Assembly (NCBI RefSeq): GCF_029607905.1 | Contig: NZ_JAPHEH010000001.1 | Span: 463,530 to 527,529 of the forward strand | From: Thiovibrio frasassiensis | GTDB lineage: Bacteria > Desulfobacterota > Desulfobulbia > Desulfobulbales > Desulfurivibrionaceae | DNA length: 64,000 bases | Reading direction: 5' to 3' | Part shown: one piece after another, positions 41,317 to 58,541 of the stretch | Numbering within the stretch: the first letter of the stretch is position 1 | Layout: each line of letters opens with the position of its first letter | Notes under the pieces: generated by a model | Database searches by the model: none | Seen by the model: only the letters and a program-made list of their open reading frames with translations | What the model was told of the DNA's origin: nothing | Translations under genes and position numbers: made by a program

Positions 41317-42864
41317 TTACAGGGAGAAATAAAAGGTTGCCCCTTGTCCCACCGCACCCTCCGCCCGGACTGTGCCGCCGTGCCGATGGATAATCCTCTG
41401 CACCGTGGCCAGGCCAATGCCCGTCCCTTCAAATTCCTGAGAAGAGTGCAGCCGCTGGAAGGCGCCGAACAGTTTGTCACCATAGGCCATGTCAAAACCC
41501 GCGCCATTATCCTTCACAAAGAGGAACTCCTTGCCGCCTTCTTCCCGCCGGCCGAAGGCAATCCGTGCCTCCGGGGTTTTCGCGGTGAATTTCCAGGCAT
41601 TGCCCAGCAGATTATCGAGCACTGCCCGCAGCAAGACAGCATCCCCGAAAACCGTTATCCCCTTGGCAATTTCAAAGACAACCTTCCGCTGCGGCGCCGT
41701 GTGTTGGAGGTCTTCAACAATCTCGCCGGCCAGAACGCTGAGATCGACCTCCTGCCGATTGATCTCGCCCCTGGAAAGCCGGGAAAGCTGCAGCATATCG
41801 TCGATCAAGTGGCCCATCCGCACACATCCGGCCCGGATACGACCGAGATAATCCTTGGCCGCGCCATCCAGGGTCTCGCCGTAATCCTCCAGCAGGGCCA
41901 TACTGAAGCCATCGATGCCGCGCAGCGGCGCCCGCAGATCGTGGGAAACCGAATAGGCAAAGGAGTCGAGTTCTTTATTCGCCGCGGCAATCTGGGCGGT
42001 GCGCTCCTCCACCCTCGCTTCGAGCTCTTCGTTGGCTTGGCGCACCTCTTCCTCCGCTCTGCGGCGCTCGAGCACCTCCTGCTGCAAGTCCTCGGTCCTG
42101 GCCCGCACCATATCGCGAAGCCGGGTGTTGAAAAGCAGCAAGCCGGCCAGCACCAACAGCCCGGTAAAGGAAGAGGCACAAACAATATAGAGAAGATAGT
42201 ACTGGTGTTCCATGGGAGCCCGGATCGACTCGATCGCCCGGATATCGCCGACCTTCTCGCCAAAACCACCCAGCCCCGGATAGAGGCTTTGAAGACCGAG
42301 GGGCGCATCCTGCCGGTCTCCATGGCAGACCATGCACCTCTGCTGGTTCACCAGAAAAGGCAGGGCGACATAGAGGTAGTCCTTGCCATCGATCCGGACA
42401 ACCTCCCGGTACTTCTTAACCTCCTTGTTCGCATTGAACATCCGGATCAGCTTTTCTTCCAAGGCGTCCGCCTTGTTCACCGGATTGCGCGGATTGATGG
42501 CGGCCATCTTGTAGTAAACTTCCTCGAGACCAGCGGCCTTACGCTCCTCATTGTATGCCCGGTGCTGGTTTCTGACCATGAACGAAGAGGAGAGGATCTC
42601 CGGGGCGTAAAACTTTTCCGCAACCATGCCTTCCGCTTTCAATTTGTAGAAAGCGGGATGCATGATTTCCTGGATATAACGATGCACCCCTTTGTGGGAG
42701 AGGAGTACGGCTTGGATGTTTCTTTCCGCCTCGTTGAGCACATAGAGATGGGCAAGTTGGTACAGCCCGACGGCAACAACGCAGGCAACCCCCAGCGCCA
42801 ACACGGTTATTTTCCAATAGTGGTGCCTTGGTTGTGGAACAAAACGGTGTGATTCTGACCCCAT
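41317..42864 (-). CDS. Haem-sensor histidine kinase (Tll0287/DUF3365-like domain)
   Basis: A 515-residue membrane kinase. TM1 (about 18-38), a periplasmic region with a c-type haem motif CMVCH near residue 178 in a DUF3365/Tll0287-like domain, and TM2 (about 220-243) lead into a coiled coil. HisKA is FAYSVSHDLRAPLRGIDGF (phosphoacceptor His in SHDLRAPL), followed by DNLLGNAWKFT, DNGAGFDM and GTGIGLATV. It may sense redox state or a small ligand through haem. GGGAGG precedes the ATG. It leads the three-gene two-component operon. Confidence 0.88.
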   Translation of the reverse strand: MGSESHRFVPQPRHHYWKITVLALGVACVVAVGLYQLAHLYVLNEAERNIQAVLLSHKGVHRYIQEIMHPAFYKLKAEGMVAEKFYAPEILSSSFMVRNQHRAYNEERKAAGLEEVYYKMAAINPRNPVNKADALEEKLIRMFNANKEVKKYREVVRIDGKDYLYVALPFLVNQQRCMVCHGDRQDAPLGLQSLYPGLGGFGEKVGDIRAIESIRAPMEHQYYLLYIVCASSFTGLLVLAGLLLFNTRLRDMVRARTEDLQQEVLERRRAEEEVRQANEELEARVEERTAQIAAANKELDSFAYSVSHDLRAPLRGIDGFSMALLEDYGETLDGAAKDYLGRIRAGCVRMGHLIDDMLQLSRLSRGEINRQEVDLSVLAGEIVEDLQHTAPQRKVVFEIAKGITVFGDAVLLRAVLDNLLGNAWKFTAKTPEARIAFGRREEGGKEFLFVKDNGAGFDMAYGDKLFGAFQRLHSSQEFEGTGIGLATVQRIIHRHGGTVRAEGAVGQGATFYFSL

Positions 42865-48628: not shown

Positions 48629-49339
48629 ATGGGAGACGCACTGGCACTACTCGCCCTGCTAATTGGCCTGGAACTGGTTCTGGGAGTCGACAATATCCTG
48701 GTCATCGCGATCTTTGTCGGCCGTCTGCCCGCGGAAAAGCGCGACAGCGCCCGCCTGGCCGGGCTCGCCTTCGCCCTGGTCGCGCGGATCGGCATGCTGG
48801 TCGCCCTCCTCGGCCTGGCCAACCTTACCAACCCCGTGTTCCTGGATTTTTCCGTCCGGGACCTGATCCTGATCTCCGGCGGCCTCTTTCTGCTCTTCAA
48901 GGCGGTGCGGGAGATCCACCACACGGTGGAGGCCAAGGAGGAGGGAGGCGGTCCCGGCATGGTCATGGGCGGCTTTGCTGCAATCATCGGCCAGATCGTC
49001 CTGCTGGACATCGTCTTTTCCATCGACTCGGTGATCACCGCCATCGGCCTGACCAGCCAGGTCTGGATCATCATCAGCTCGGTTATTGTCTCCTTCGTGG
49101 CCATCCTCTTTTTCGCCCGGCCCATCGGCGAATTCATCCTCCAGCACCCGGCGATCAAGATCCTCGCCCTCTCCTTTTTGATCACCATCGGGGTGACCAT
49201 CTTCATGGAGGGGCTGCACAAGCATGTGCCCAAGGGCTATATCTACCTGCCCATGGGCTTCGCCCTTCTGGTCGAAATCCTGCAGATGCGCTACGAGCAT
49301 AACCGTAAAAAAATCCTGGCCGCCGAACAGGCGCCATAA
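48629..49339 (+). CDS. TerC-family integral membrane protein
   Basis: A 236-residue protein with seven hydrophobic segments. LGVDNILVIAIF near residue 18 and LLDIVFSIDSVITAIG near 125 are the paired acidic motifs of TerC, thought to move metal ions such as manganese. No tellurite genes adjoin it. GAGG precedes the start by eight bases; 30 bases separate it from the aminotransferase gene. Confidence 0.9.
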   Translation: MGDALALLALLIGLELVLGVDNILVIAIFVGRLPAEKRDSARLAGLAFALVARIGMLVALLGLANLTNPVFLDFSVRDLILISGGLFLLFKAVREIHHTVEAKEEGGGPGMVMGGFAAIIGQIVLLDIVFSIDSVITAIGLTSQVWIIISSVIVSFVAILFFARPIGEFILQHPAIKILALSFLITIGVTIFMEGLHKHVPKGYIYLPMGFALLVEILQMRYEHNRKKILAAEQAP

Positions 49340-49487
49340 AATCCAGGCCGTCCCATCTTCGCCCGCTCCCCCTTTTTTACACCGCAATGGCCAGCGGCAA
49401 TGGCCGCCCAATACGCAGCAAGACTTGTCTTTTTCCTTGTCTCCTGCGTATGATGGGAAATCCTCTCCCCGCCAAAAGGTGAACACA

Positions 49488-51425
49488 ATGCGGACAATCA
49501 AATATCCCCTCTGGACCATTCTGACGGTCTACGGCACGATCGCCACTCTGTGGCTGCTCATGGGTGATTGGTTTCTTCACGGCATGGAAAGCGACCAGAC
49601 GGTGATGTTGTGGGATACGACCAAAGATATTGCCTTTCTCCTTTGTTCCATGGGGCTCGTTGCTTTGTTATTGCTGCGGCACACAACAAGTGCCCGCGAA
49701 TTCTCCATCAACTACAAGGCGATATTCGATTCCGCCAACGACGCCTTTCTCGTCTTCGACAAGAACGGCACCATCGTCGACGCCAATCGCAAAGCGTGCG
49801 AAATTTATGGCTACCCCCTTGATCGCTTGAAGGGCCTTACCGGTCAGGATCTTGTCCGTCCCGACTATTTCCAGCTGTTTACAAGATTTGCCCAGGCAAG
49901 CCACCTTGACCTGGCAAAGACCATTGAATCGATTGATGTCCGGGCCGACGGCAGCACTTTCCCGGTGGAGATCCGAGGCTCCATCATTTCCTATCAGGGC
50001 GAGGAGCATAGGCTGGCGATTATCCGGGATGTCTCCTCCCAGCAGGAAATGGCACGCCATAAAGCCTCCAGCGAGCACCGGTTACAGGAACAACTCACCC
50101 TCCTGGCACTCAGCGCGGACTTGGGGGTGGTGTTGACCAGAAGCAAGAATGTCGCGGAGATGCTGCAAGATTGTACGGAACTGCTGGCCAAGCATCTTGA
50201 TGCGGCCTTTGCCCGCATCTGGACCCTGGAATCCGGCGAAGAGATGCTGAAGCTTGTGGCCAGCGCCGGCATGTATACCCACCTGGACGGCCCCCATGCC
50301 CGAATTCCCATGATCGAAGAGTATAAAATCGGCGCCATCGCTCTGCACAAAAAACCCCATCTCACCAACACTGTTATCGGCGATCCGCAGATTCGCGATC
50401 AGGAATGGGCGCGCCGGGAAGGCATGATCGCCTTTGCCGGCCAGCCGCTCCTGATCGGCAACCGAACCATCGGGGTCATGGGGCTTTTTGCCAAACACCC
50501 GCTCTCGGAGGTTGTGCTACAGACCCTCGGGGCGGTGGCCGACGAGGTGGCGCTTGGCATCGACCGGATATGGACCGAAGCCGAACTGGTGCAGAAAAAC
50601 CGGGCCCTGAAAACCATGAGCGGTTGCAATGAAGTTTTGGTGCGGGCCGAGGAAGAGGCGAAATTTCTGGCAGAAATCTGCGCAACCATCGTCCAGCACG
50701 GCGAGTATGCAATGGCGTGGATCGGACTCAAGGAAACCGATCCGGCTTGTGGGGTGCGGGTGGCGGCGAGCGCGGGCGATGCGCCGGGATATCTCGCCGG
50801 AATCAAGGTTTCCTGGGCTGACAACGAATGGGGTCAAGGCCCGACCGGCAAAGCAATCCGCACCGGGATGGTCAACTACTGTGAGGATGTGGAAAATTCC
50901 AAGAGCTTCCTCCCGTGGTTGGAAGCAGCACGCGAACATCGACTTGGCAGTTCCGTGGCCATTCCGCTCATTCATGGTGGGGAAACCATGGGCGCCCTGA
51001 ACATCTACGCCGCGGAAAAACAAGGCTTCGGCATTTCCGAGGTGGCCTTGCTGCAAGATTTGGCGATTGATGTGGCCTACGGTCTCCGGGTTTTGCGGGA
51101 GCGAACCCTGGCAAAGAAGGGGGCAGAAGAAAAAGCTCGGCTTGAACAACAGGTGCGACAGGGACAAAAGATGGAAGCCATCGGAACCCTGGCCGGCGGC
51201 ATTGCCCATGACTTCAACAATATTCTTGCCGCCATCCTGGGATTTACCGATCTGGCGAAGTACAAGTTGCCCGAGGGAAGCGAGCTGCACCACGACTTGG
51301 ACAGTGTGCTCCAGGCGGGGACCCGTGCCAAGGAACTGGTCAAACAGATTCTCACCTTCAGCCCCGGCAGGTGGAGCAGGAACGGCGCCCCATCGAGGTC
51401 TATCTCGTGGTCAAGGAGGCCCTGA
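49488..51425 (+). CDS. Hybrid sensor kinase, N-terminal part (interrupted by frameshift)
   Basis: A 645-residue first part. Two membrane helices (about 7-27 and 45-64), a PAS domain (NYKAIFDSANDAFLVFDKNG), two GAF domains (about 205-365 and 390-550), then HisKA with [20 protein letters not shown]. The frame then passes into about 20 nonsense residues and stops, while the ATPase domain continues in another frame. The last good residues are ILTFS, at about 51350-51362. The start at 49488 has AAGGTG seven bases upstream. Either a frameshifted gene or a sequencing error; see the next entry. Confidence 0.82.
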   Translation: MRTIKYPLWTILTVYGTIATLWLLMGDWFLHGMESDQTVMLWDTTKDIAFLLCSMGLVALLLLRHTTSAREFSINYKAIFDSANDAFLVFDKNGTIVDANRKACEIYGYPLDRLKGLTGQDLVRPDYFQLFTRFAQASHLDLAKTIESIDVRADGSTFPVEIRGSIISYQGEEHRLAIIRDVSSQQEMARHKASSEHRLQEQLTLLALSADLGVVLTRSKNVAEMLQDCTELLAKHLDAAFARIWTLESGEEMLKLVASAGMYTHLDGPHARIPMIEEYKIGAIALHKKPHLTNTVIGDPQIRDQEWARREGMIAFAGQPLLIGNRTIGVMGLFAKHPLSEVVLQTLGAVADEVALGIDRIWTEAELVQKNRALKTMSGCNEVLVRAEEEAKFLAEICATIVQHGEYAMAWIGLKETDPACGVRVAASAGDAPGYLAGIKVSWADNEWGQGPTGKAIRTGMVNYCEDVENSKSFLPWLEAAREHRLGSSVAIPLIHGGETMGALNIYAAEKQGFGISEVALLQDLAIDVAYGLRVLRERTLAKKGAEEKARLEQQVRQGQKMEAIGTLAGGIAHDFNNILAAILGFTDLAKYKLPEGSELHHDLDSVLQAGTRAKELVKQILTFSPGRWSRNGAPSRSISWSRRP

Positions 51426-52288
51426 AATTACTGCGCGCCTCCATCCCGACAAACATCGAATTCAAGAGCACCATCGATGAAAAAAGCGGCGCAGTGCTCG
51501 CCGACCCCACCCAGATCCATCAGCTCATCATGAACCTCTGCACCAATGCCTATCACGCCATGCGTGGCGACGATGCCGGAACCCTGGGGGTTTCCCTGCG
51601 GGCGGCGGAAATCAACAAGCAGGACGCCCATGGCCTGCTCCACCCCGGGAATTATCTCGAATTCACAGTCAGCGACACCGGCTGCGGCATGAGTCCGGAA
51701 ATCATGGAAAGAATTTTCGACCCCTATTTTACCACCAAGCCGCGCGGCGAGGGCACCGGCATGGGGCTGGCGATGGTCCATGGCATTGTCACGCAATACG
51801 AAGGCGATATCCGGGTGGAGAGCGCGCTTGGGCAAGGAACGACGATCCGGGTCTACCTGCCCCAGGCGGAAAATAAGGCCCCTGAAGCCGAGCGGATCAT
51901 TAGCCAGCAGCTCCCAGGGGGCAACGAGCGGGTGCTGGTGGTGGATGACGAGCATATGGTCCTGGCCATGCATACAAACATGCTTGAACGGTTGGGGTAC
52001 AAGGTGACGGCCATGCCAAGCAGCAAGGAAGCACTGGCGGAGTTTAGCGCCCGGCCGCAGGATTTTGATCTGGTGCTCACCGACATGGCCATGCCGGGTA
52101 TGCAGGGTGATATTTTGGCCCAAAAAATTCGGCAGGTGCGGGCGGATATCCCGATTCTCATGTGCACCGGCTTCAGCGAAAAACTGACCCCGGAAAGGGC
52201 GCAGGGTTTCGGGATCGGCAAAATCATCATGAAGCCGCTTCTCTTTCGGGAACTGGCGACTTCTATCCGGGAGTTTCTCGATTCCTGA
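51371..52288 (+). CDS. Hybrid sensor kinase, C-terminal part (ATPase and receiver)
   Basis: A 305-residue continuation in a shifted frame. It begins EQERRPIEVYLVVKEALK and contains NLCTNAYHAM, DTGCGMSPE and GTGMGLAMV of the kinase ATPase domain, then a receiver with LVVDDEHMVLAM, LVLTDMAMPGM (phosphoacceptor) and IIMKPLLFREL. The GTG at its start has no Shine-Dalgarno, so independent translation is unlikely. Removing two of the four C's at 51362-51365 would join both halves into one intact protein of about 930 residues. Confidence 0.82.
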   Translation: MEQERRPIEVYLVVKEALKLLRASIPTNIEFKSTIDEKSGAVLADPTQIHQLIMNLCTNAYHAMRGDDAGTLGVSLRAAEINKQDAHGLLHPGNYLEFTVSDTGCGMSPEIMERIFDPYFTTKPRGEGTGMGLAMVHGIVTQYEGDIRVESALGQGTTIRVYLPQAENKAPEAERIISQQLPGGNERVLVVDDEHMVLAMHTNMLERLGYKVTAMPSSKEALAEFSARPQDFDLVLTDMAMPGMQGDILAQKIRQVRADIPILMCTGFSEKLTPERAQGFGIGKIIMKPLLFRELATSIREFLDS

Positions 52289-52405: not shown

Positions 52406-52927
52406 ATGAAAAAGAAACTCTTTGTGGCTACGGCATTGGCATGTATGTTGGCGGCAGGTACGGTTTCCGCCCAGACTGGGCCTGAGATGATGCATGGCGC
52501 AGGCCCTGGAGCCATGCCGCCGATGGGGACGGACATGGAAATGGGCCCCAACATGATGGGCGGCGGCATGGGTATGAGGCCCTGCATGATGGGCGGCGGC
52601 ATGGGCATGGGACCCGGCATGATGGGCGGGGGCATGGGCATGGGGCCCGGCATGATGGGCGGGGGCATGGGCATGGGGCCCTGCATGATGGGCGGGGGCA
52701 TGGGCATGGGACCCGGCATGATGGGCGCCATCGATCCCGAGGATCAGCAAAAGTATCTCGATGCGACCAGGGATCTGCGCAAGAAAATGAACGACAAACA
52801 GTTCGAATATGCCGAAGCAGCCCGCAATCCCAAGACGAGCAGGGCTGATCTCCTCAAAAAAAGAAAAGAACTGTGGGATATCCAGCAAAAAATCCATGAA
52901 AAAGCGTGGAATTTCATAAAAGAATAG
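52406..52927 (+). CDS. Periplasmic Met/Gly-rich protein, CpxP/ZraP-like
   Basis: A 173-residue exported protein. Signal peptide MKKKLFVATALACMLAAGTV with cleavage near VSA-Q. A central block of five 11-residue repeats of the form MMGGGMGMGPG follows, with Cys replacing Gly at the end of two units. The C-terminal 60 residues are a charged helical segment (DPEDQQKYLDATRDLRKKMND, then ADLLKKRKELWDIQQKIHEKA) like the CpxP/ZraP/Spy fold. The Met/Cys block could bind copper or silver. AGGGAGG precedes the ATG. A convergent haem kinase and sigma54 regulator lie downstream. Confidence 0.82.
   Translation: MKKKLFVATALACMLAAGTVSAQTGPEMMHGAGPGAMPPMGTDMEMGPNMMGGGMGMRPCMMGGGMGMGPGMMGGGMGMGPGMMGGGMGMGPCMMGGGMGMGPGMMGAIDPEDQQKYLDATRDLRKKMNDKQFEYAEAARNPKTSRADLLKKRKELWDIQQKIHEKAWNFIKE
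52553..52717 (+). repeat. Five tandem 33-bp repeats coding the Met/Gly-rich block
   Basis: Units start at 52553, 52586, 52619, 52652 and 52685, each ATGATGGGCGG-GGCATGGG-like with a few third-base changes, then a partial sixth. Likely to vary in copy number by slippage. Confidence 0.9.
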
Positions 52928-53124: not shown

Positions 53125-54480
53125 CTACTCCTCTATCCGATGGGTCTTCATTTTCTCCCAGAGATTTTTGCGGCTGATGCCAAGCAGCTGCGCCGCCTCG
53201 CTCTTTTTCCCCCCGGTCTGCCGGAGTGCCCGCAGGATGCAGCTCCGTTCGGCCATGGCAATGGCCTCGGCCAGTTTCATCGAAGAGGATGCGGCAATCT
53301 CGCAGGGCGGCGACTCCCTTACCAGATCCGCCGGCAGGAGCCAGGGCTCCACCACGCTGGTGGGGTTGAGCACCGTGACCCGCTCGATGATATTGCGCAG
53401 TTCCCGGATATTGCCGGGGTAATTGTATGCCATGAGGATCTCAAGGGCTGCGGGGGAAAGGGTCTGGCTTCCGGCGCGGGATTTGTCGAATTCCCGAAAA
53501 AAGAAACCGCAGAGTTCGGGGATATCCTCCTTGCGCTCCCGCAGCGGCGGCACCGCGATGGGGATAACCTGCAGCCGGTAATACAGGTCTTCCCGAAAAC
53601 GGCTGGCCTGCACTTCGCTCAGAAGATTTCTCGCCGTGGCGCAGAGCACCCGGACATCGATCTTGATCGGGGCACCGCCACCCACCCGCTCAATCTCCCG
53701 CTCCTGCAGAACCCGGAGCAGTTTCGCCTGAAGATTGAGGGGCAGCTCCCCAATTTCATCCAAAAGGATGGTGCCGTTGTTGGCCATTTCGAAGCGGCCG
53801 ATCTTTCTGGCGTCCGCGCCGGTAAAGGCCCCCTTTTCATGGCCGAAGAGTTCGGATTCCATGAGCCCTTCGGGGATCGCGGCACAGTTCACCTTGATAA
53901 AGGGGCCTTTCGCCCGGGGGCTGCTGTAATGGATGGCCGAGGCAACCAGTTCCTTGCCGGTCCCGGATTCGCCGGTAATCAGGACGGTGGCATCCGAGGG
54001 AGCCACCTGGGCAATCAGGTGCAGCAAGGCGCGCATCGGGGGGCTGCTGCCGATAATAGGCTTTTGCGCCTGCTGACAACATTGCTCCAGAGAGGCACAG
54101 CGCACCTTGATCGCTTGATTTTCGATGAGCCTTTTAACCCGAATCACCAGATCGTCCATATCAAATGGCTTCAGGAGATAATCGGCCGCGCCTTGCTTCA
54201 GGCATTGCACCGCGTCTTCCACGCTGCCGTAGGCGGTCATGAATATCACATCCGTGGCAGGCGTATGCAGGAGCACCTCGCGCAACAATGCCTCTCCGCC
54301 CAAATGCGGCATGCGGATATCGGAAATCAGCAGGTTGTAGGCCTTTTTCCGAAGAAGCGCCTGGGCCTCGCGTCCGTCACAGGCCTCATCCACCAGCCAG
54401 CCCTCCTTGCGCAGCCGATCCGAAAGGGTGATGCGCATGATCTCGTCGTCTTCGGCAAGAAGAATCTTACTGTTATGCAT
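53125..54480 (-). CDS. Sigma54-dependent response regulator (NtrC/ZraR type)
   Basis: A 451-residue regulator. The receiver domain (1-120) has phosphoacceptor LISDIRMPHLGG and switch Lys in LLKPFD. The AAA+ domain (about 140-375) has GESGTGKE, GAFTGA and ILLDEIGEL. A Fis-type helix-turn-helix ends it (GGKKSEAAQLLGISRKNLW). It is encoded with the haem-sensor kinase that overlaps its start by eight bases. Its likely targets are the two palindromes and the sigma54 promoter ahead of nrfHA, and through the first palindrome its own promoter. The start at 54480 follows GAGGGGG. Confidence 0.93.
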   Translation of the reverse strand: MHNSKILLAEDDEIMRITLSDRLRKEGWLVDEACDGREAQALLRKKAYNLLISDIRMPHLGGEALLREVLLHTPATDVIFMTAYGSVEDAVQCLKQGAADYLLKPFDMDDLVIRVKRLIENQAIKVRCASLEQCCQQAQKPIIGSSPPMRALLHLIAQVAPSDATVLITGESGTGKELVASAIHYSSPRAKGPFIKVNCAAIPEGLMESELFGHEKGAFTGADARKIGRFEMANNGTILLDEIGELPLNLQAKLLRVLQEREIERVGGGAPIKIDVRVLCATARNLLSEVQASRFREDLYYRLQVIPIAVPPLRERKEDIPELCGFFFREFDKSRAGSQTLSPAALEILMAYNYPGNIRELRNIIERVTVLNPTSVVEPWLLPADLVRESPPCEIAASSSMKLAEAIAMAERSCILRALRQTGGKKSEAAQLLGISRKNLWEKMKTHRIEE

Positions 54481-56044
54481 TCTTTTCCCCCTCTTGGGTC
54501 TGGCTCGCGGGCTCAACGGGCAATTCTACAATGAAGCAGGCCCCCTCGCCCTGTGTGCTGGTTACGGAAATCCTTCCCTGCATCCGCTGCACCAGGGAGT
54601 AGGTGACCGCAAGGCCAAGCCCGCTTCCCTCCCCCACATCCTTGGTGGTGAAGAAGGGATCGAAGATCTTGGCGAGTTCCACTTCGGCTATCCCGGTGCC
54701 GGTATCGGCAAAGCTGAGACGGAGCCAGCCGTCTTCCTCCCTACTGCTTACGGTCAAAGTGCCGCCCTGGGGCATGGCCTGCACGGCATTGAGCACAATA
54801 TTCACCACAACCTGCTGCAGCGCCCCGGAGTCAATGGGGTATTTTTTTTCTCCCAAGGCAAGCTCGGGGCGCAAGGTGATTTTTTTGAGGGCATACTCCA
54901 GCAGGAGAAAACACTCTTTGAGCAGGGGGTCCACACCAATACGACTGTAATGGAGAGGCTCCCGCCGGCCGAAATTGAGCAGCTGCTGCACGGTGTTGCC
55001 GATGCGCTTCAACCCTTTCTCAATCAACCCAAGATACCGCTGCCGCAACACCGCATCCTCCGGCGCGTCCTGCATGCTTTTGATGCAGTTGAGCATGCCG
55101 CCCAAGGGATTGTTTACCTCATGGGCCACCCCGGCGGCCAGCTGGCCCAAGGCCGCCAGTTTTTCGCTCTGGAATATCTGCTTTCTGGTCCGATCCAATT
55201 CCTGCTGGGATCTTTCCAGCCTGCCGCACAGATCCCGAAATTTTCCGCTCAGATGACCGACCTCGTCGTTGCCCGAAGGCAACAGGGCCGGAAGGGGCGA
55301 CTGCTGGGGATATTGGTCCATGGCCAGGGAAAGCCGGCTCAGCCGCCGCACCACCAGGAGATCGACCATCAGGTAGAGGGTGAGCCCCACCGCCAGAATG
55401 GTGGCCACAAAAATCAGAAAGAGCATATGGTTGTTCTTGTGGATATCGGCCAGGGCCCGGTCCAGGGGGATGATCAGGCTCAGACCGCCGCGGATGTCTC
55501 CCACCTTGTTTTCTTGCTCAACATGGCATTCGAGGCAGGAGGCCTCCATGTAGAGCGGGCTGATGTAACGAAGCACCCGGCGACCATTCCGGCTGCCGAG
55601 CGAGAGCCGCTCGAACACCTCCTTGGTGGCAAAGGCCAACAGGCTTTCTCGTTCCCAGGGGTCCGGTTCGTTGACCGGGTTGATCACCTTCAGCGCCGTA
55701 ACCCGATAATGGGCAACGCCCTCCGAGGCTGCATACTGGGAAATTTCCCGGGTGACCATGGCCGGATTACGCTTCACATAGTGGCGGCCGCTGGTATCGG
55801 TAATCTCCGGTTCCGCAAGGAAAGGGTTGGCCTCGACCCCGGGGCTTTTCAAAAGAAAGAGACCGTTGTGGTCAGCCACCCATTTCCGGGTGAGCAGAAC
55901 CTGCTTGGAAAGCATGCGCGCCTGATCCGCCGCCTGGGAAAGCACCAGTTCGTGCTGGAACTGCGAGGTACGATAGAAGGTGATGCCGTAGGAAACCATA
56001 ACGACACTGCTGATGAGCAGGATGAATTTATTGCGCAGACTCAT
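54473..56044 (-). CDS. Haem-sensor histidine kinase, partner of the sigma54 regulator
   Basis: A 523-residue membrane kinase. TM1 (about 7-26), a periplasmic Tll0287/DUF3365-like domain with a c-type haem motif CLECH near residue 170, TM2 (about 205-228) and HAMP precede HisKA. The phosphoacceptor region is AAGVAHEVNNPLGGMLN; then VVNIVLNAVQAM, DTGTGIAEVE and GSGLGLAV complete the ATPase domain. It probably senses redox conditions or nitrite/NO via haem. AAGGAG is six bases before the ATG. Divergent from nrfHA, with which it shares the control region. Confidence 0.92.
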   Translation of the reverse strand: MSLRNKFILLISSVVMVSYGITFYRTSQFQHELVLSQAADQARMLSKQVLLTRKWVADHNGLFLLKSPGVEANPFLAEPEITDTSGRHYVKRNPAMVTREISQYAASEGVAHYRVTALKVINPVNEPDPWERESLLAFATKEVFERLSLGSRNGRRVLRYISPLYMEASCLECHVEQENKVGDIRGGLSLIIPLDRALADIHKNNHMLFLIFVATILAVGLTLYLMVDLLVVRRLSRLSLAMDQYPQQSPLPALLPSGNDEVGHLSGKFRDLCGRLERSQQELDRTRKQIFQSEKLAALGQLAAGVAHEVNNPLGGMLNCIKSMQDAPEDAVLRQRYLGLIEKGLKRIGNTVQQLLNFGRREPLHYSRIGVDPLLKECFLLLEYALKKITLRPELALGEKKYPIDSGALQQVVVNIVLNAVQAMPQGGTLTVSSREEDGWLRLSFADTGTGIAEVELAKIFDPFFTTKDVGEGSGLGLAVTYSLVQRMQGRISVTSTQGEGACFIVELPVEPASQTQEGEKNA

Positions 56045-56193
56045 TGGTTCTCCTTTTCGTGGGGTTCCGACCGTGACAGCCTGCAACAATGCATAATCCG
56101 TTCCTTGCTTTTCAAACGTTCGCAGCACCGATCAGCTCTGCCCCGAGAGAGGAACGCAGAGGGTGCCCCACAAGGTGCTTACCCCACAAACCC

Positions 56194-56222
56194 ATTGTAT
56201 GTTACCGTTTGGTAGCAGTCAA
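56194..56222 (-). promoter_or_regulatory. Sigma70 promoter of the kinase/regulator operon
   Basis: Minus-strand TTGACT (56222-56217), 17-base spacer, TACAAT (56199-56194), each one mismatch from consensus. The leader is about 140 bases. The spacer is almost exactly the first palindromic site, so a bound regulator would block it. Confidence 0.7.
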
Positions 56223-56251
56223 TTGTCTTTTGCTGTTTCAGCCTGGTAACA
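56200..56251. promoter_or_regulatory. Two palindromic sites, candidate nrf regulator enhancer
   Basis: Site 1 at 56200-56217 reads TGTTACC-GTTT-GGTAGCA. Site 2 at 56234-56251 reads TGTTTCA-GCCT-GGTAACA. They share the half-site pattern and spacing, and the centres are 34 bases apart. They lie about 40-90 bases upstream of the sigma54 promoter, as expected for an NtrC-type activator. Confidence 0.65.
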
Positions 56252-56290
56252 TTTCTGATTGTTTCTCTTGATTTTACAACAAAAAAACGA

Positions 56291-56306
56291 TGGCACCCCT
56301 TTTGCA
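56291..56306 (+). promoter_or_regulatory. Consensus sigma54 promoter of nrfHA
   Basis: TGGCACCCCTTTTGCA matches TGGCAC-N5-TTGCA without a mismatch. Expected start near 56317, giving a leader of about 240 bases to nrfH. The leader holds short open frames (for instance 12 codons from 56319) without clear ribosome sites. Confidence 0.85.
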
Positions 56307-56555
56307 AAAAAACTTAATGAATGACGGCCTGGAGCTTTTCCGGAGCCTGAACTGAAAACAATGAGGAATGCTCGAGAAGGAAGGGTCCTCGTAATTCAGG
56401 AGGTGCCCATCTGGTGAAGATACCGATCATCCCTGGGTCGCATCAGGTTAATAAAAAAAAGTTTTTGGATACTCCTTTTTTTTGATAGCCTGAGAGAAGA
56501 ACAAAGAAGAAACGCCTGCAGGATTCGCGCAGCAAAAAAACAAGGAGGTACGCCT

Positions 56556-57020
56556 ATGGGTAACAAAAAGGGAAGGAGGGGCTGGCTGATCGCTCTCACC
56601 GTCCTTGGCGTCGGCATTCTGGTTGCGATTTTCTTGGCATTGGGACCTCCCCAGCTCCTGGCAAAATCGGAAACCCCCAACTTTTGTGCCAGTTGCCATG
56701 TGATGGAGGAGGAATATGATGCTTGGGCCCATGCCGGCGCCCATCGGCGGAAAGCGTGCGTGGACTGCCATCTGCCGAATGACAACCTGGCTCTGCACTA
56801 TGTCTGGAAGAGTATCGACGGCATGAAGGATGTCCTGTTCTTTTATTCCAATCAGGTGCCAGAACGGATTGAAATCAGTGGACACGGCAAGGCGGTGGTC
56901 CAAGCCAATTGCATCCGCTGTCACGAGACCACCGTTGACCACATTGACCAAAAACGGCTTTGCTGGGAATGCCATCGCCGGGTTCCGCACAGGGGCGTTG
57001 GTTCAATGCAAACACTGTAA
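56556..57020 (+). CDS. nrfH: Cytochrome c nitrite reductase small subunit NrfH
   Basis: A 154-residue tetrahaem quinol dehydrogenase of the NapC/NrfH family. One N-terminal membrane anchor (about 10-30) is followed by CASCHVMEEEY, CVDCHLPND, CIRCHETTV and CWECHRRVPH. It oxidises menaquinol and passes electrons to NrfA. AAGGAGG lies seven bases before the ATG. First gene after the sigma54 promoter; nrfA follows 33 bases on. Confidence 0.95.
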   Translation: MGNKKGRRGWLIALTVLGVGILVAIFLALGPPQLLAKSETPNFCASCHVMEEEYDAWAHAGAHRRKACVDCHLPNDNLALHYVWKSIDGMKDVLFFYSNQVPERIEISGHGKAVVQANCIRCHETTVDHIDQKRLCWECHRRVPHRGVGSMQTL

Positions 57021-57053
57021 CGCACGCAACAAAGACAACATAAGGAGGAGAAT

Positions 57054-58541
57054 ATGCAAAAGAAATTACTGTTGCCCCTGGTCCTGCTGGTAACCGGTGG
57101 CGTGCTGCTGACCGGCTGCAAAGGTCCCGAGAAGGTAGAGGCTGTCCGGGCAGTGAAGATTGCCGATGGTGAAATGGATCCGGCGGAATGGGGGAAGGCC
57201 TACCCGGTCCACTACGACCTGTGGAAAAAAACCGCCGAACCGACTCCCGCCGGCAAGAGCAAATACAAGAGAGGCTTCAATGCCGACGGCATCACCTACG
57301 ACAAGCTCTCGGAGTTTCCATACATGGCCCTGCTTTTTAACGGCTGGGGCTTCGGCGTCGAGTACAACGAACCCCGCGGCCACGCCTTTATGCTTAAAGA
57401 TCAGGTTACCATCGACCCAGCCCGCGTCGGAGCCGGGGGCGTCTGCCTGACCTGCAAAACTCCCTACGCACCTCAACTTGAGAAAGAAAAGGGGTTCGAT
57501 TACTACAGCAAGCCCTGGGCCGAGGTCCGCGATATGATCCCGGAAAAATTCCGCGATCTCGGTGTTGCCTGCGTCGACTGCCACGACAACAACGGGATGG
57601 GGCTCAAGCTCTCCCGCGAGTTCACCCTGGGCAAGGCGCTCGAGGAAATGAAGGTTGACCGCAGCAAGCTCACCCATCAGGATATGCGCACCCTGGTCTG
57701 TGCCCAATGCCACGTAACTTACAATATCAAGAAGGATGAAAACAAGAAGTCGGTGGGCGTCTACTTCCCATGGCAGGGCAGCACCTATGGCGACATCTCG
57801 GTTGAGAACATCATCAAGCAGATCCGCTCCGACAATACCGTAGGGGAATGGACCCAGAAGGTTACCGGCTACAAGATGCCCTTCATGCGGCACCCTGAGT
57901 TTGAACTCTATTCCCGGAACAGTGTCCACTGGATGGCGGGCGCTGCCTGTGCCGACTGCCATATGCCCTATACCAAGGTGGGCAGCAACAAGCTCTCCGA
58001 CCACCGGGTGACCAGCCCGCTTAAGGCCGACATGAAGGCCTGCCAACAATGCCATACCGAAACCCCGGAGTGGCTGCGCCAACAGGTGATCACGATCCAG
58101 GACCGTACCGCCTCCATGATGGTCCGTTCCGGTTACGCCACCGCCACCGTGGCCAAGCTGATTGAGCGGGTGCACACCCTGCAGGCGGAAGGCAAGGAGA
58201 TCGACCAGAAACTTTACGAGAAGGCCAAGGATTTTTATATGGAAGCCTTCTTCCGCAGTCTGTTCATCGGGGCCGAGAACTCGATTGGCTTCCACAACCC
58301 CACCGAAGCGATGCGGATCCTCGGAGATTCCACCGCCTTTGCCACCAAGGCAGAAGGGCTCCTGCGCCAAGCACTTACCAAGGCTGGCGAGGATGTGCCG
58401 ATGAACGTTAATCTCGAGCTTGACAAGTACCTCAATGAACGGGGCAAGAAAAAGCTCATGCAGCAGAAGGACGTGGAATTCAAGGACCCCTTCGGCGTTG
58501 AGGAAAAACTGAACACCGTGACACCCGTCACCACGAAGTAA
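57054..58541 (+). CDS. nrfA: Cytochrome c nitrite reductase catalytic subunit NrfA
   Basis: A 495-residue pentahaem enzyme that reduces nitrite to ammonium in the periplasm. The catalytic haem motif with lysine is CLTCK near 138. Four CXXCH motifs follow (CVDCH, CAQCH, CADCH, CQQCH). The N-terminus has a lipoprotein-type signal (VLLTGC, cysteine at about 22), so it may be membrane-tethered. It forms a complex with NrfH and supports nitrite ammonification. Confidence 0.96.
   Translation: MQKKLLLPLVLLVTGGVLLTGCKGPEKVEAVRAVKIADGEMDPAEWGKAYPVHYDLWKKTAEPTPAGKSKYKRGFNADGITYDKLSEFPYMALLFNGWGFGVEYNEPRGHAFMLKDQVTIDPARVGAGGVCLTCKTPYAPQLEKEKGFDYYSKPWAEVRDMIPEKFRDLGVACVDCHDNNGMGLKLSREFTLGKALEEMKVDRSKLTHQDMRTLVCAQCHVTYNIKKDENKKSVGVYFPWQGSTYGDISVENIIKQIRSDNTVGEWTQKVTGYKMPFMRHPEFELYSRNSVHWMAGAACADCHMPYTKVGSNKLSDHRVTSPLKADMKACQQCHTETPEWLRQQVITIQDRTASMMVRSGYATATVAKLIERVHTLQAEGKEIDQKLYEKAKDFYMEAFFRSLFIGAENSIGFHNPTEAMRILGDSTAFATKAEGLLRQALTKAGEDVPMNVNLELDKYLNERGKKKLMQQKDVEFKDPFGVEEKLNTVTPVTTK

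Follow-up and report, generated by a model that had tools for sequence, protein, structure and literature searches.

The window analysed here, a stretch of 64,000 nucleotides from Thiovibrio frasassiensis, contains a divergent arrangement in which an operon for a sensor histidine kinase and a response regulator (minus strand) faces away from nrfHA (plus strand, 56556-58541), with the region 56045-56555 lying between them. The genes and the features of this region are listed in Table 1. The kinase input domain matches PF11845 with an E-value of 6.4e-21 and carries a single CxxCH motif, placing the protein among the heme-Cache sensors, and CxxCH is present in 33 of 33 kinases checked, that of the window included. 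The response regulator comprises a receiver, an AAA+ domain with GAFTGA and a Fis-type HTH, the composition of the NtrC class, and its start is probably the ATG at 54480. GAFTGA is exact in 29 of the 32 response regulators compared. The recognition-helix signature of the regulator, GISRKNLW, is almost constant among its orthologs and occurs once in the genome (searched at the DNA level, with at most one mismatch).

Table 1. Genes and predicted control elements of the divergent locus (positions within the window).
Feature	Position	Strand	Description
Response regulator, NtrC type	53125..54516	-	Pfam Response_reg, Sigma54_activat, HTH_8
Sensor histidine kinase	54473..56044	-	Pfam PF11845 (Tll0287/heme-Cache input), PF00512 HisKA, PF02518 HATPase_c
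sigma54-type element facing kinase, AGGAACGGATTATGCA	56089..56104	-	8/11 consensus letters; predicted start near 56078, leader ~34 nt
-10-like hexamer TACAAT	56194..56199	-	sigma70-like promoter toward kinase; layout kept in 5/69 regions
Palindrome 1, TGTTACCGTTTGGTAGCA	56200..56217		18 bp; predicted regulator site, fills sigma70 spacer
-35-like hexamer TTGACT	56217..56222	-	sigma70-like promoter toward kinase
Palindrome 2, TGTTTCAGCCTGGTAACA	56234..56251		18 bp; predicted regulator site
sigma54 promoter of nrfHA, TGGCACCCCTTTTGCA	56291..56306	+	-24/-12, 11/11 consensus letters; predicted start near 56317
nrfH, NapC/NirT-type tetraheme quinol dehydrogenase	56556..57020	+	Pfam PF03264
nrfA, cytochrome c nitrite reductase	57054..58541	+	Pfam PF02335, E 1.7e-154; CxxCK motif present

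Other features of the window lie away from this region. A further Tll0287-domain protein is encoded at about 42214-42738 (minus strand; G000:C1:505743-506267), and the genome has seven PF11845 matches altogether. Two overlapping plus-strand frames (49224-51425 and 51371-52288) were read as one sensor kinase with an apparent frameshift near 51400, which may be a sequencing error or real. At 52522-52728, a 33-bp tandem repeat of 6.3 copies lies within a small Met/Gly-rich protein that has no Pfam match.

The preliminary description had placed two TGTTNCN-N4-GGTANCA palindromes 34 bases apart in the intergenic region, while presenting the region as built around one of them. Both palindromes are present, their start positions 34 bp apart, so that the control region is really built around a pair. 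Palindrome 2 is a weak copy, with 2 mismatches in 14 letters. A search of the 64-kb window with TGTTACC-N4-GGTAACA, allowing up to 2 mismatches, returned palindromes 1 and 2 only, and two matches were reached in none of 100 dinucleotide shuffles of the window. Scored together, the pair matches 21 of 24 letters and is the sole pair with sites 32-35 bp apart to score at least 18 in the window; across 200 Markov windows, pairs scoring at least 18 averaged 0.025 per window and no pair scored 21 or more. The exact pattern TGTTNCN5GGTANCA has three matches in the whole genome (2.84 Mb), namely the two palindromes and one within a coding gene. The third lies inside a long coding frame, which we read as a receiver/PAS/GGDEF-like protein, and we set it aside as chance.

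The consensus sigma54 promoter claimed for nrfHA was borne out at the sequence level, every consensus letter being present. A short conserved block (56270-56278, GATTTTACA), common to the window and the close relatives L038 and L045 (in L045 with one letter changed), lies between palindrome 2 and this promoter and is unexplained. The predicted nrfHA leader is long (~239 nt, 56317-56555). We rejected a riboswitch or other known RNA in this leader, as an Rfam scan of 55900-56700 at E-values up to 1, leader included, found no family.

We assessed the conservation of the pair in a class sample of 257 genomes, all of one order according to their listing. Two GTTACC-N4-GGTAAC sites 34 bp apart (at most 3 mismatches in 24 letters) occur in 29 of these genomes, whereas a reversed control pattern occurs in none of the 257. 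A kinase match with an E-value of 1e-100 or better was found in 109 of the 257, and 26 of the 29 genomes with the 34-bp pair have the kinase ortholog (Fisher p 3e-8). The upstream DNA of the 109 kinase loci was then scanned for the pair within 600 bp, nine loci having less than 600 bp available. Two duplicate loci (L064 and L183, no pair) were dropped, giving 107 loci from 106 genomes; the kinase genomes G161, G114 and G182, with upstream DNA or kinase start missing, were left out, and some kinase starts, as well as the nrfH starts in L044, L047 and L048, were extrapolated. A pair with sites 32-35 bp apart stands upstream of 69 of the 107 kinase loci, with spacings of 33 bp (n = 29), 32 bp (n = 27), 34 bp (n = 12) and 35 bp (n = 1), against seven matches in 2180 shuffles of the 109 loci. 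In the other 38 loci the pair was not detected within 600 bp. It often lies within the promoter region of the kinase-regulator operon itself, and loci that lack an adjacent nrfHA (L011/L182) have it upstream of the kinase as well. Since the pair precedes 69 of 107 kinase loci and is so rare in shuffles, it belongs to the kinase's regulator, and the conservation in related genomes that the preliminary description had proposed as a check was found. Judged from sequence, the regulator encoded alongside very probably binds at this pair.

To place this lineage more widely, we drew 394 genomes from the phylum, of which 19 are members of the class and 375 lie outside it. A kinase search at E 1e-90 gave four matches, all in the class, and none in the 375 sampled genomes outside it. 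This search is a better test than the 33-bp pair pattern, which is absent from all 394 genomes, the 19 class members included; that null result is weak evidence, because the kinase occurs in only 4 of those 19 and none of the four has a 33-bp pair at its kinase. NrfA matches outside the class were found in 35 genomes, from which 20 loci, some of them short stretches, were taken. None of the 20 has the site pair (at least 20 of 24 letters), tblastn for the kinase gave at most weak kinase-domain matches there, and the three kinase frames picked up by a crude motif scan of the same loci all lack CxxCH. One locus, L244, was considered as a Desulfovibrio-type arrangement and rejected, having no kinase gene beside its regulator.

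On the side of the pair away from the kinase, we searched for sigma54 elements, defined as GG-N10-GC with at least 8 of 11 consensus letters. There are 52 matches, of which 41 lie 48-53 bp from the edge of the pair, four at 40-41 bp, one at 62 bp and six at 104-107 bp, with none at any other distance within ~200 bp of the pair. The distances of 40-41, 48-53 and 62 bp are separated by steps of about one helical turn. In the window the nrfHA promoter is 40 bp from the edge of the pair, as it is in L038 and L045. With a sigma54 matrix, 53 of the 69 regions have a target-side element; the matrix was derived from this very side, which makes the count circular, and the kinase side alone serves as a test. 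The comparison shows that the paired palindromes are tied to the kinase/regulator lineage and stand at fixed distances from predicted sigma54 promoters of respiratory genes, nrf and nap among them.

The genome of the window has the module a second time, upstream of napDA (L248 5900-6016; G000:C1 about 1185899-1186015), where the small gene before napA was read as napD. Its two sites are 33 bp apart and score 11 and only 9 of 12 letters, the lower score being that of the second site, and a sigma54 element (TGGCACACCTGTTGCT) follows 52 bp away. The NapA of this genome is 87% identical to a partial NapA behind a pair in L093 (G014). We scanned the genes behind pairs in a chosen subset of loci. 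NrfA (PF02335) was found in L087, L090, L112 and L118, NapC/NrfH-type tetraheme proteins (PF03264) in L056 and L070, and octaheme cytochromes (PF13447) in L066 and L174, along with other tetraheme c3-like proteins; NapA is the best NCBIfam match in six loci, all of them partial frames scoring below the curated cut-off. In one family, loci L066-L069 have an octaheme cytochrome (8 CxxCH) instead of nrfHA as the divergent gene beside the kinase, with the same site pair; PF13447 was found in L066, the one scanned. Genes that fit poorly with respiration also occur behind pairs: a helicase (L099), SelA (L100), a sugar-phosphatase (L011), a PEP-utilizer domain (L107), a radical-SAM protein (L160), TatA and 4Fe-4S proteins (L083 and L080) and several frames without a family. 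The helicase of L099 is nonetheless faced by a sigma54 element. These genes may reflect chance sites, wrong-side neighbours or wrong frames, or they may be real targets.

Absence of the sites upstream of nrfH had been named in advance as evidence against the proposal, and here the outcome was mixed. We compared the nrfHA loci of the window and 12 relatives, scanning the stretch upstream of nrfA in L049, which has no NrfH match. The pair is upstream of nrfH in five of the 12 relatives, and all five genomes have the kinase ortholog; counted with the window, 6 of 13 loci have the pair, all in genomes with the kinase, and 7 of 13 are without it. Among the seven, three are from genomes with no kinase match at E 1e-60 and one from a genome with only a relative at 33% identity. 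The remaining three (L042, L048 and L049) have no pair at nrfHA although a kinase ortholog (51-55% identical) is present, so that the link is not universal and some nrfHA operons lie outside the regulon. The record of L048, with NrfA 75% and kinase 51% identical, is titled ‘Nitrospirae bacterium’, which may be wrong. By comparison of genomes the predicted regulon is real, and the data are best read as the neighbouring regulator activating nrfHA and nap. In the relatives, the recurring pair seems to switch on genes for breathing nitrate or nitrite and, in some, the regulator itself.

How the pair acts on its own operon is less straightforward. The preliminary description had a strong sigma70 promoter with palindrome 1 as its 17-base spacer, and a single binding event that activates nrfHA and represses the regulator. 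The letters are there: TTGACT-17 bp-TACAAT on the minus strand has 10 of 12 consensus letters, and palindrome 1 occupies the spacer and also covers the final base of the -35 hexamer. By itself this match is within chance (1 found against 0.6 expected, sd 0.8, in a 701-bp region), and it is conservation that supports it. The layout TTGAC-17/18-TAnnnT around palindrome 1 recurs in five of the 69 regions (the window, L038, L045, L182 (G001) and L070; L144, at 9/12 in another register, was excluded), and a score of 10/12 is reached in 0.1% of shuffled flanks against 4 of 69 regions observed. Of the 27 genomes in the family, only G000, G014, G025 and G001 carry the kinase at an identity of 66% or higher; all four have the layout, so it is constant in the family. 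With one further genome sharing it, repression of this sigma70 promoter by the bound regulator is plausible in these genomes. Simple negative autoregulation, in which binding activates nrfHA through sigma54 and only represses the kinase-regulator operon through the promoter holding palindrome 1, would also follow precedents: NtrC of E. coli is described as repressing glnAp1 while activating glnAp2 (PMC3870243), and negative autoregulation has been suggested for NorR2 (PMC1274295). We nevertheless consider it unlikely. The other 64 of the 69 regions lack the sigma70 layout over palindrome 1 and yet retain the pair upstream of the kinase, and in the same genomes that have the layout a conserved sigma54-type element faces the kinase.

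This element, AGGAACGGATTATGCA, scores 12.5 bits with the matrix built from the target-side sigma54 promoters and departs from the sigma54 consensus at -26, -23 and -15. Kinase-facing elements of at least 6 bits are enriched, occurring in 28 of the 69 regions against a shuffle mean of 2.35 (maximum 5 in 20 rounds); 41 regions have none at this threshold. When the window is aligned with the two relatives nearest to it, the element is an invariant 16-bp block in a diverged leader, 43-46 bp from the kinase ATG in the three species. The block might instead be another conserved element, such as part of a leader RNA or the site of another protein, in which case the pair would activate only nrfHA. 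Its distance to the pair is indeed not fixed even among close relatives (95 bp in the window, 122 bp in L038 and 121 bp in L045), and helical phasing of 24 kinase-facing elements is weak, with R of 0.12, 0.42 and 0.61 at 10.0, 10.7 and 11.3 bp. The p-value, computed for 10.7 bp only and with uniform positions as the null, is 0.013, or 0.005 once the set had been thinned manually; as the distances were typed by hand, it is no more than suggestive. Against such a non-promoter element, the invariant stretch coincides exactly with the 16 letters of the GG-N10-GC element, its distance to the ATG is steady, similar elements are enriched over shuffles, and the Rfam scan returned no match; we put its chances about as low as those of simple repression. 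We take 56104-56089, with less certainty than the nrfHA promoter, as the sigma54 promoter of the kinase-regulator operon. Because a conserved element of this type faces the kinase, the model of one event with opposite effects was changed. What stands of it is the association of the sites with the kinase/regulator and, at a fixed distance, with sigma54 promoters, both upheld by conservation, and repression is plausible at the sigma70 promoter only. Switching nrfHA on and the regulator off is probably an incomplete account, having missed both the element at 56104-56089 and the napDA target; it appears likelier that both sides are activated and the basal sigma70 promoter alone is shut than that the regulator is plainly repressed.

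It could also be asked whether the palindromes bind a different protein altogether, such as a CRP/FNR-type HcpR or another sigma54 activator. The pair is a predicted site, and in Desulfuromonas and Geobacter nrfHA has been predicted to be an HcpR target (PMC1274295). The HcpR motif reported in the same source is TTGAC-N4-GTCAA, from which the palindrome of the window differs, and we rejected HcpR/FNR-type sites on this ground. The pair moreover goes with the kinase lineage (in 26 of the 29 genomes that have it at 34 bp), stands upstream of the kinase in L011/L182 with nrfHA not adjacent, and is accompanied by a regulator whose recognition-helix signature is found once in the genome, all of which make a different binding protein very improbable.

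The closest known system is NrfS-NrfR of Desulfovibrio vulgaris and D. desulfuricans (regulator DVU0621), described as a two-component sigma54 activator adjoining nrfHA, with its sites upstream of nrfHA and a gene arrangement called divergent in D. desulfuricans (PMC6456213, PMC5701242, PMC3333781, PMC12285233). NrfSR is reported to activate nrfHA, a sigma54-dependent target, and predicted sites are given also at nap (PMC6456213, PMC5701242, PMC4641369, PMC12285233). The window resembles this system in having a kinase and an NtrC-class response regulator adjoining nrfHA and, at the sequence level, a sigma54 promoter upstream of nrfHA with predicted regulator sites upstream of it, and a predicted regulon that takes in nap through the napDA pair (33 bp apart, sigma54 at 52 bp). 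The 16-bp NrfR motif is reported to resemble the LurR motif very closely, GTCCGCTTTTTCAGAC being one LurR site (PMC6456213), whereas the motif here is the 18-bp TGTTACC-N4-GGTAACA, the two systems being compared by layout and motif description. From the LurR sites in that source we derived the pattern GTCYRC-N6-RGAC; the region 56045-56555 has no match to it with fewer than 2 mismatches, and loose matches in the window number 243 against 267 expected. The system would work like NrfSR with a differing DNA motif. A class- or order-wide regulon with this motif was not seen in the text of the literature searched.

In E. coli, glnAp1 and glnAp2 both serve glnA in one direction. The window resembles them at the sequence level, with an enhancer site overlapping a sigma70 promoter and a sigma54-type promoter for the regulator operon, but its arrangement is divergent and has other targets and another signal. 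NorR, a one-component activator, is linked to NO and is described with three tandem GT-N7-AC enhancer sites and a sigma54 promoter beside the divergent regulator gene (PMC1274295), as well as a GAF input domain (PMC2941729). The tandem sites and sigma54 promoter beside a divergent regulator gene are shared here, but the window has a receiver domain, a membrane kinase and a different palindrome, and Pfam gave no GAF match. The input domain of the kinase, PF11845 with CxxCH, is that of the Tll0287/DUF3365 heme-Cache (sCache_heme) sensors, a domain reported to be common in Desulfobacterota and of which a signalling-type member is described as binding NO tightly (PMC12889525). Unlike the account in that source, which in its cited part gives no regulon, we propose one here.

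We propose the following mechanism. With its c-type heme the kinase would sense NO or nitrite, and it would then phosphorylate the regulator; NO or nitrite as the signal is our inference from a single other member of this sensor family. Two regulator dimers would bind the pair and form an ATPase ring, which would activate nrfHA from its sigma54 promoter and, less certainly, the divergent kinase-regulator operon from its sigma54-type promoter. Occupancy of palindrome 1 would at the same time block the sigma70-like promoter, the source of basal kinase and regulator, and in this way a signal-driven promoter would take over the operon from a constitutive one, a hand-over resembling glnAp1/glnAp2. 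The same regulator would activate napDA elsewhere in the genome. Two-way activation with an exchange of sigma70 for sigma54 is likely, judged from the sequence. Taken as a shared nitrite/nitrate control region, in which the pair activates sigma54 promoters both ways and shuts the basal sigma70 promoter while the regulator also drives napDA, this reading has in our estimate a probability of roughly 0.7. More tentatively, and with odds somewhat below even, we suggest an order- or class-wide regulon of a heme-Cache (probably NO-sensing) kinase with its NtrC-type partner and an enhancer pair of fixed geometry, which in this family would turn both sigma54 promoters on and the sigma70 promoter off.

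The distances of 40-41, 48-53, 62 and 104-107 bp between pair and sigma54 promoter offer natural material on the rigidity of close enhancer-promoter spacing. If the proposal is true, the heme-Cache (Tll0287) sensors would gain a concrete regulon, that of nitrate and nitrite respiration, in an anaerobe group with Desulfurivibrio and Desulfobulbaceae as its named records. The motif itself can be tested and has so far been located at 69 kinase loci and at further genes.
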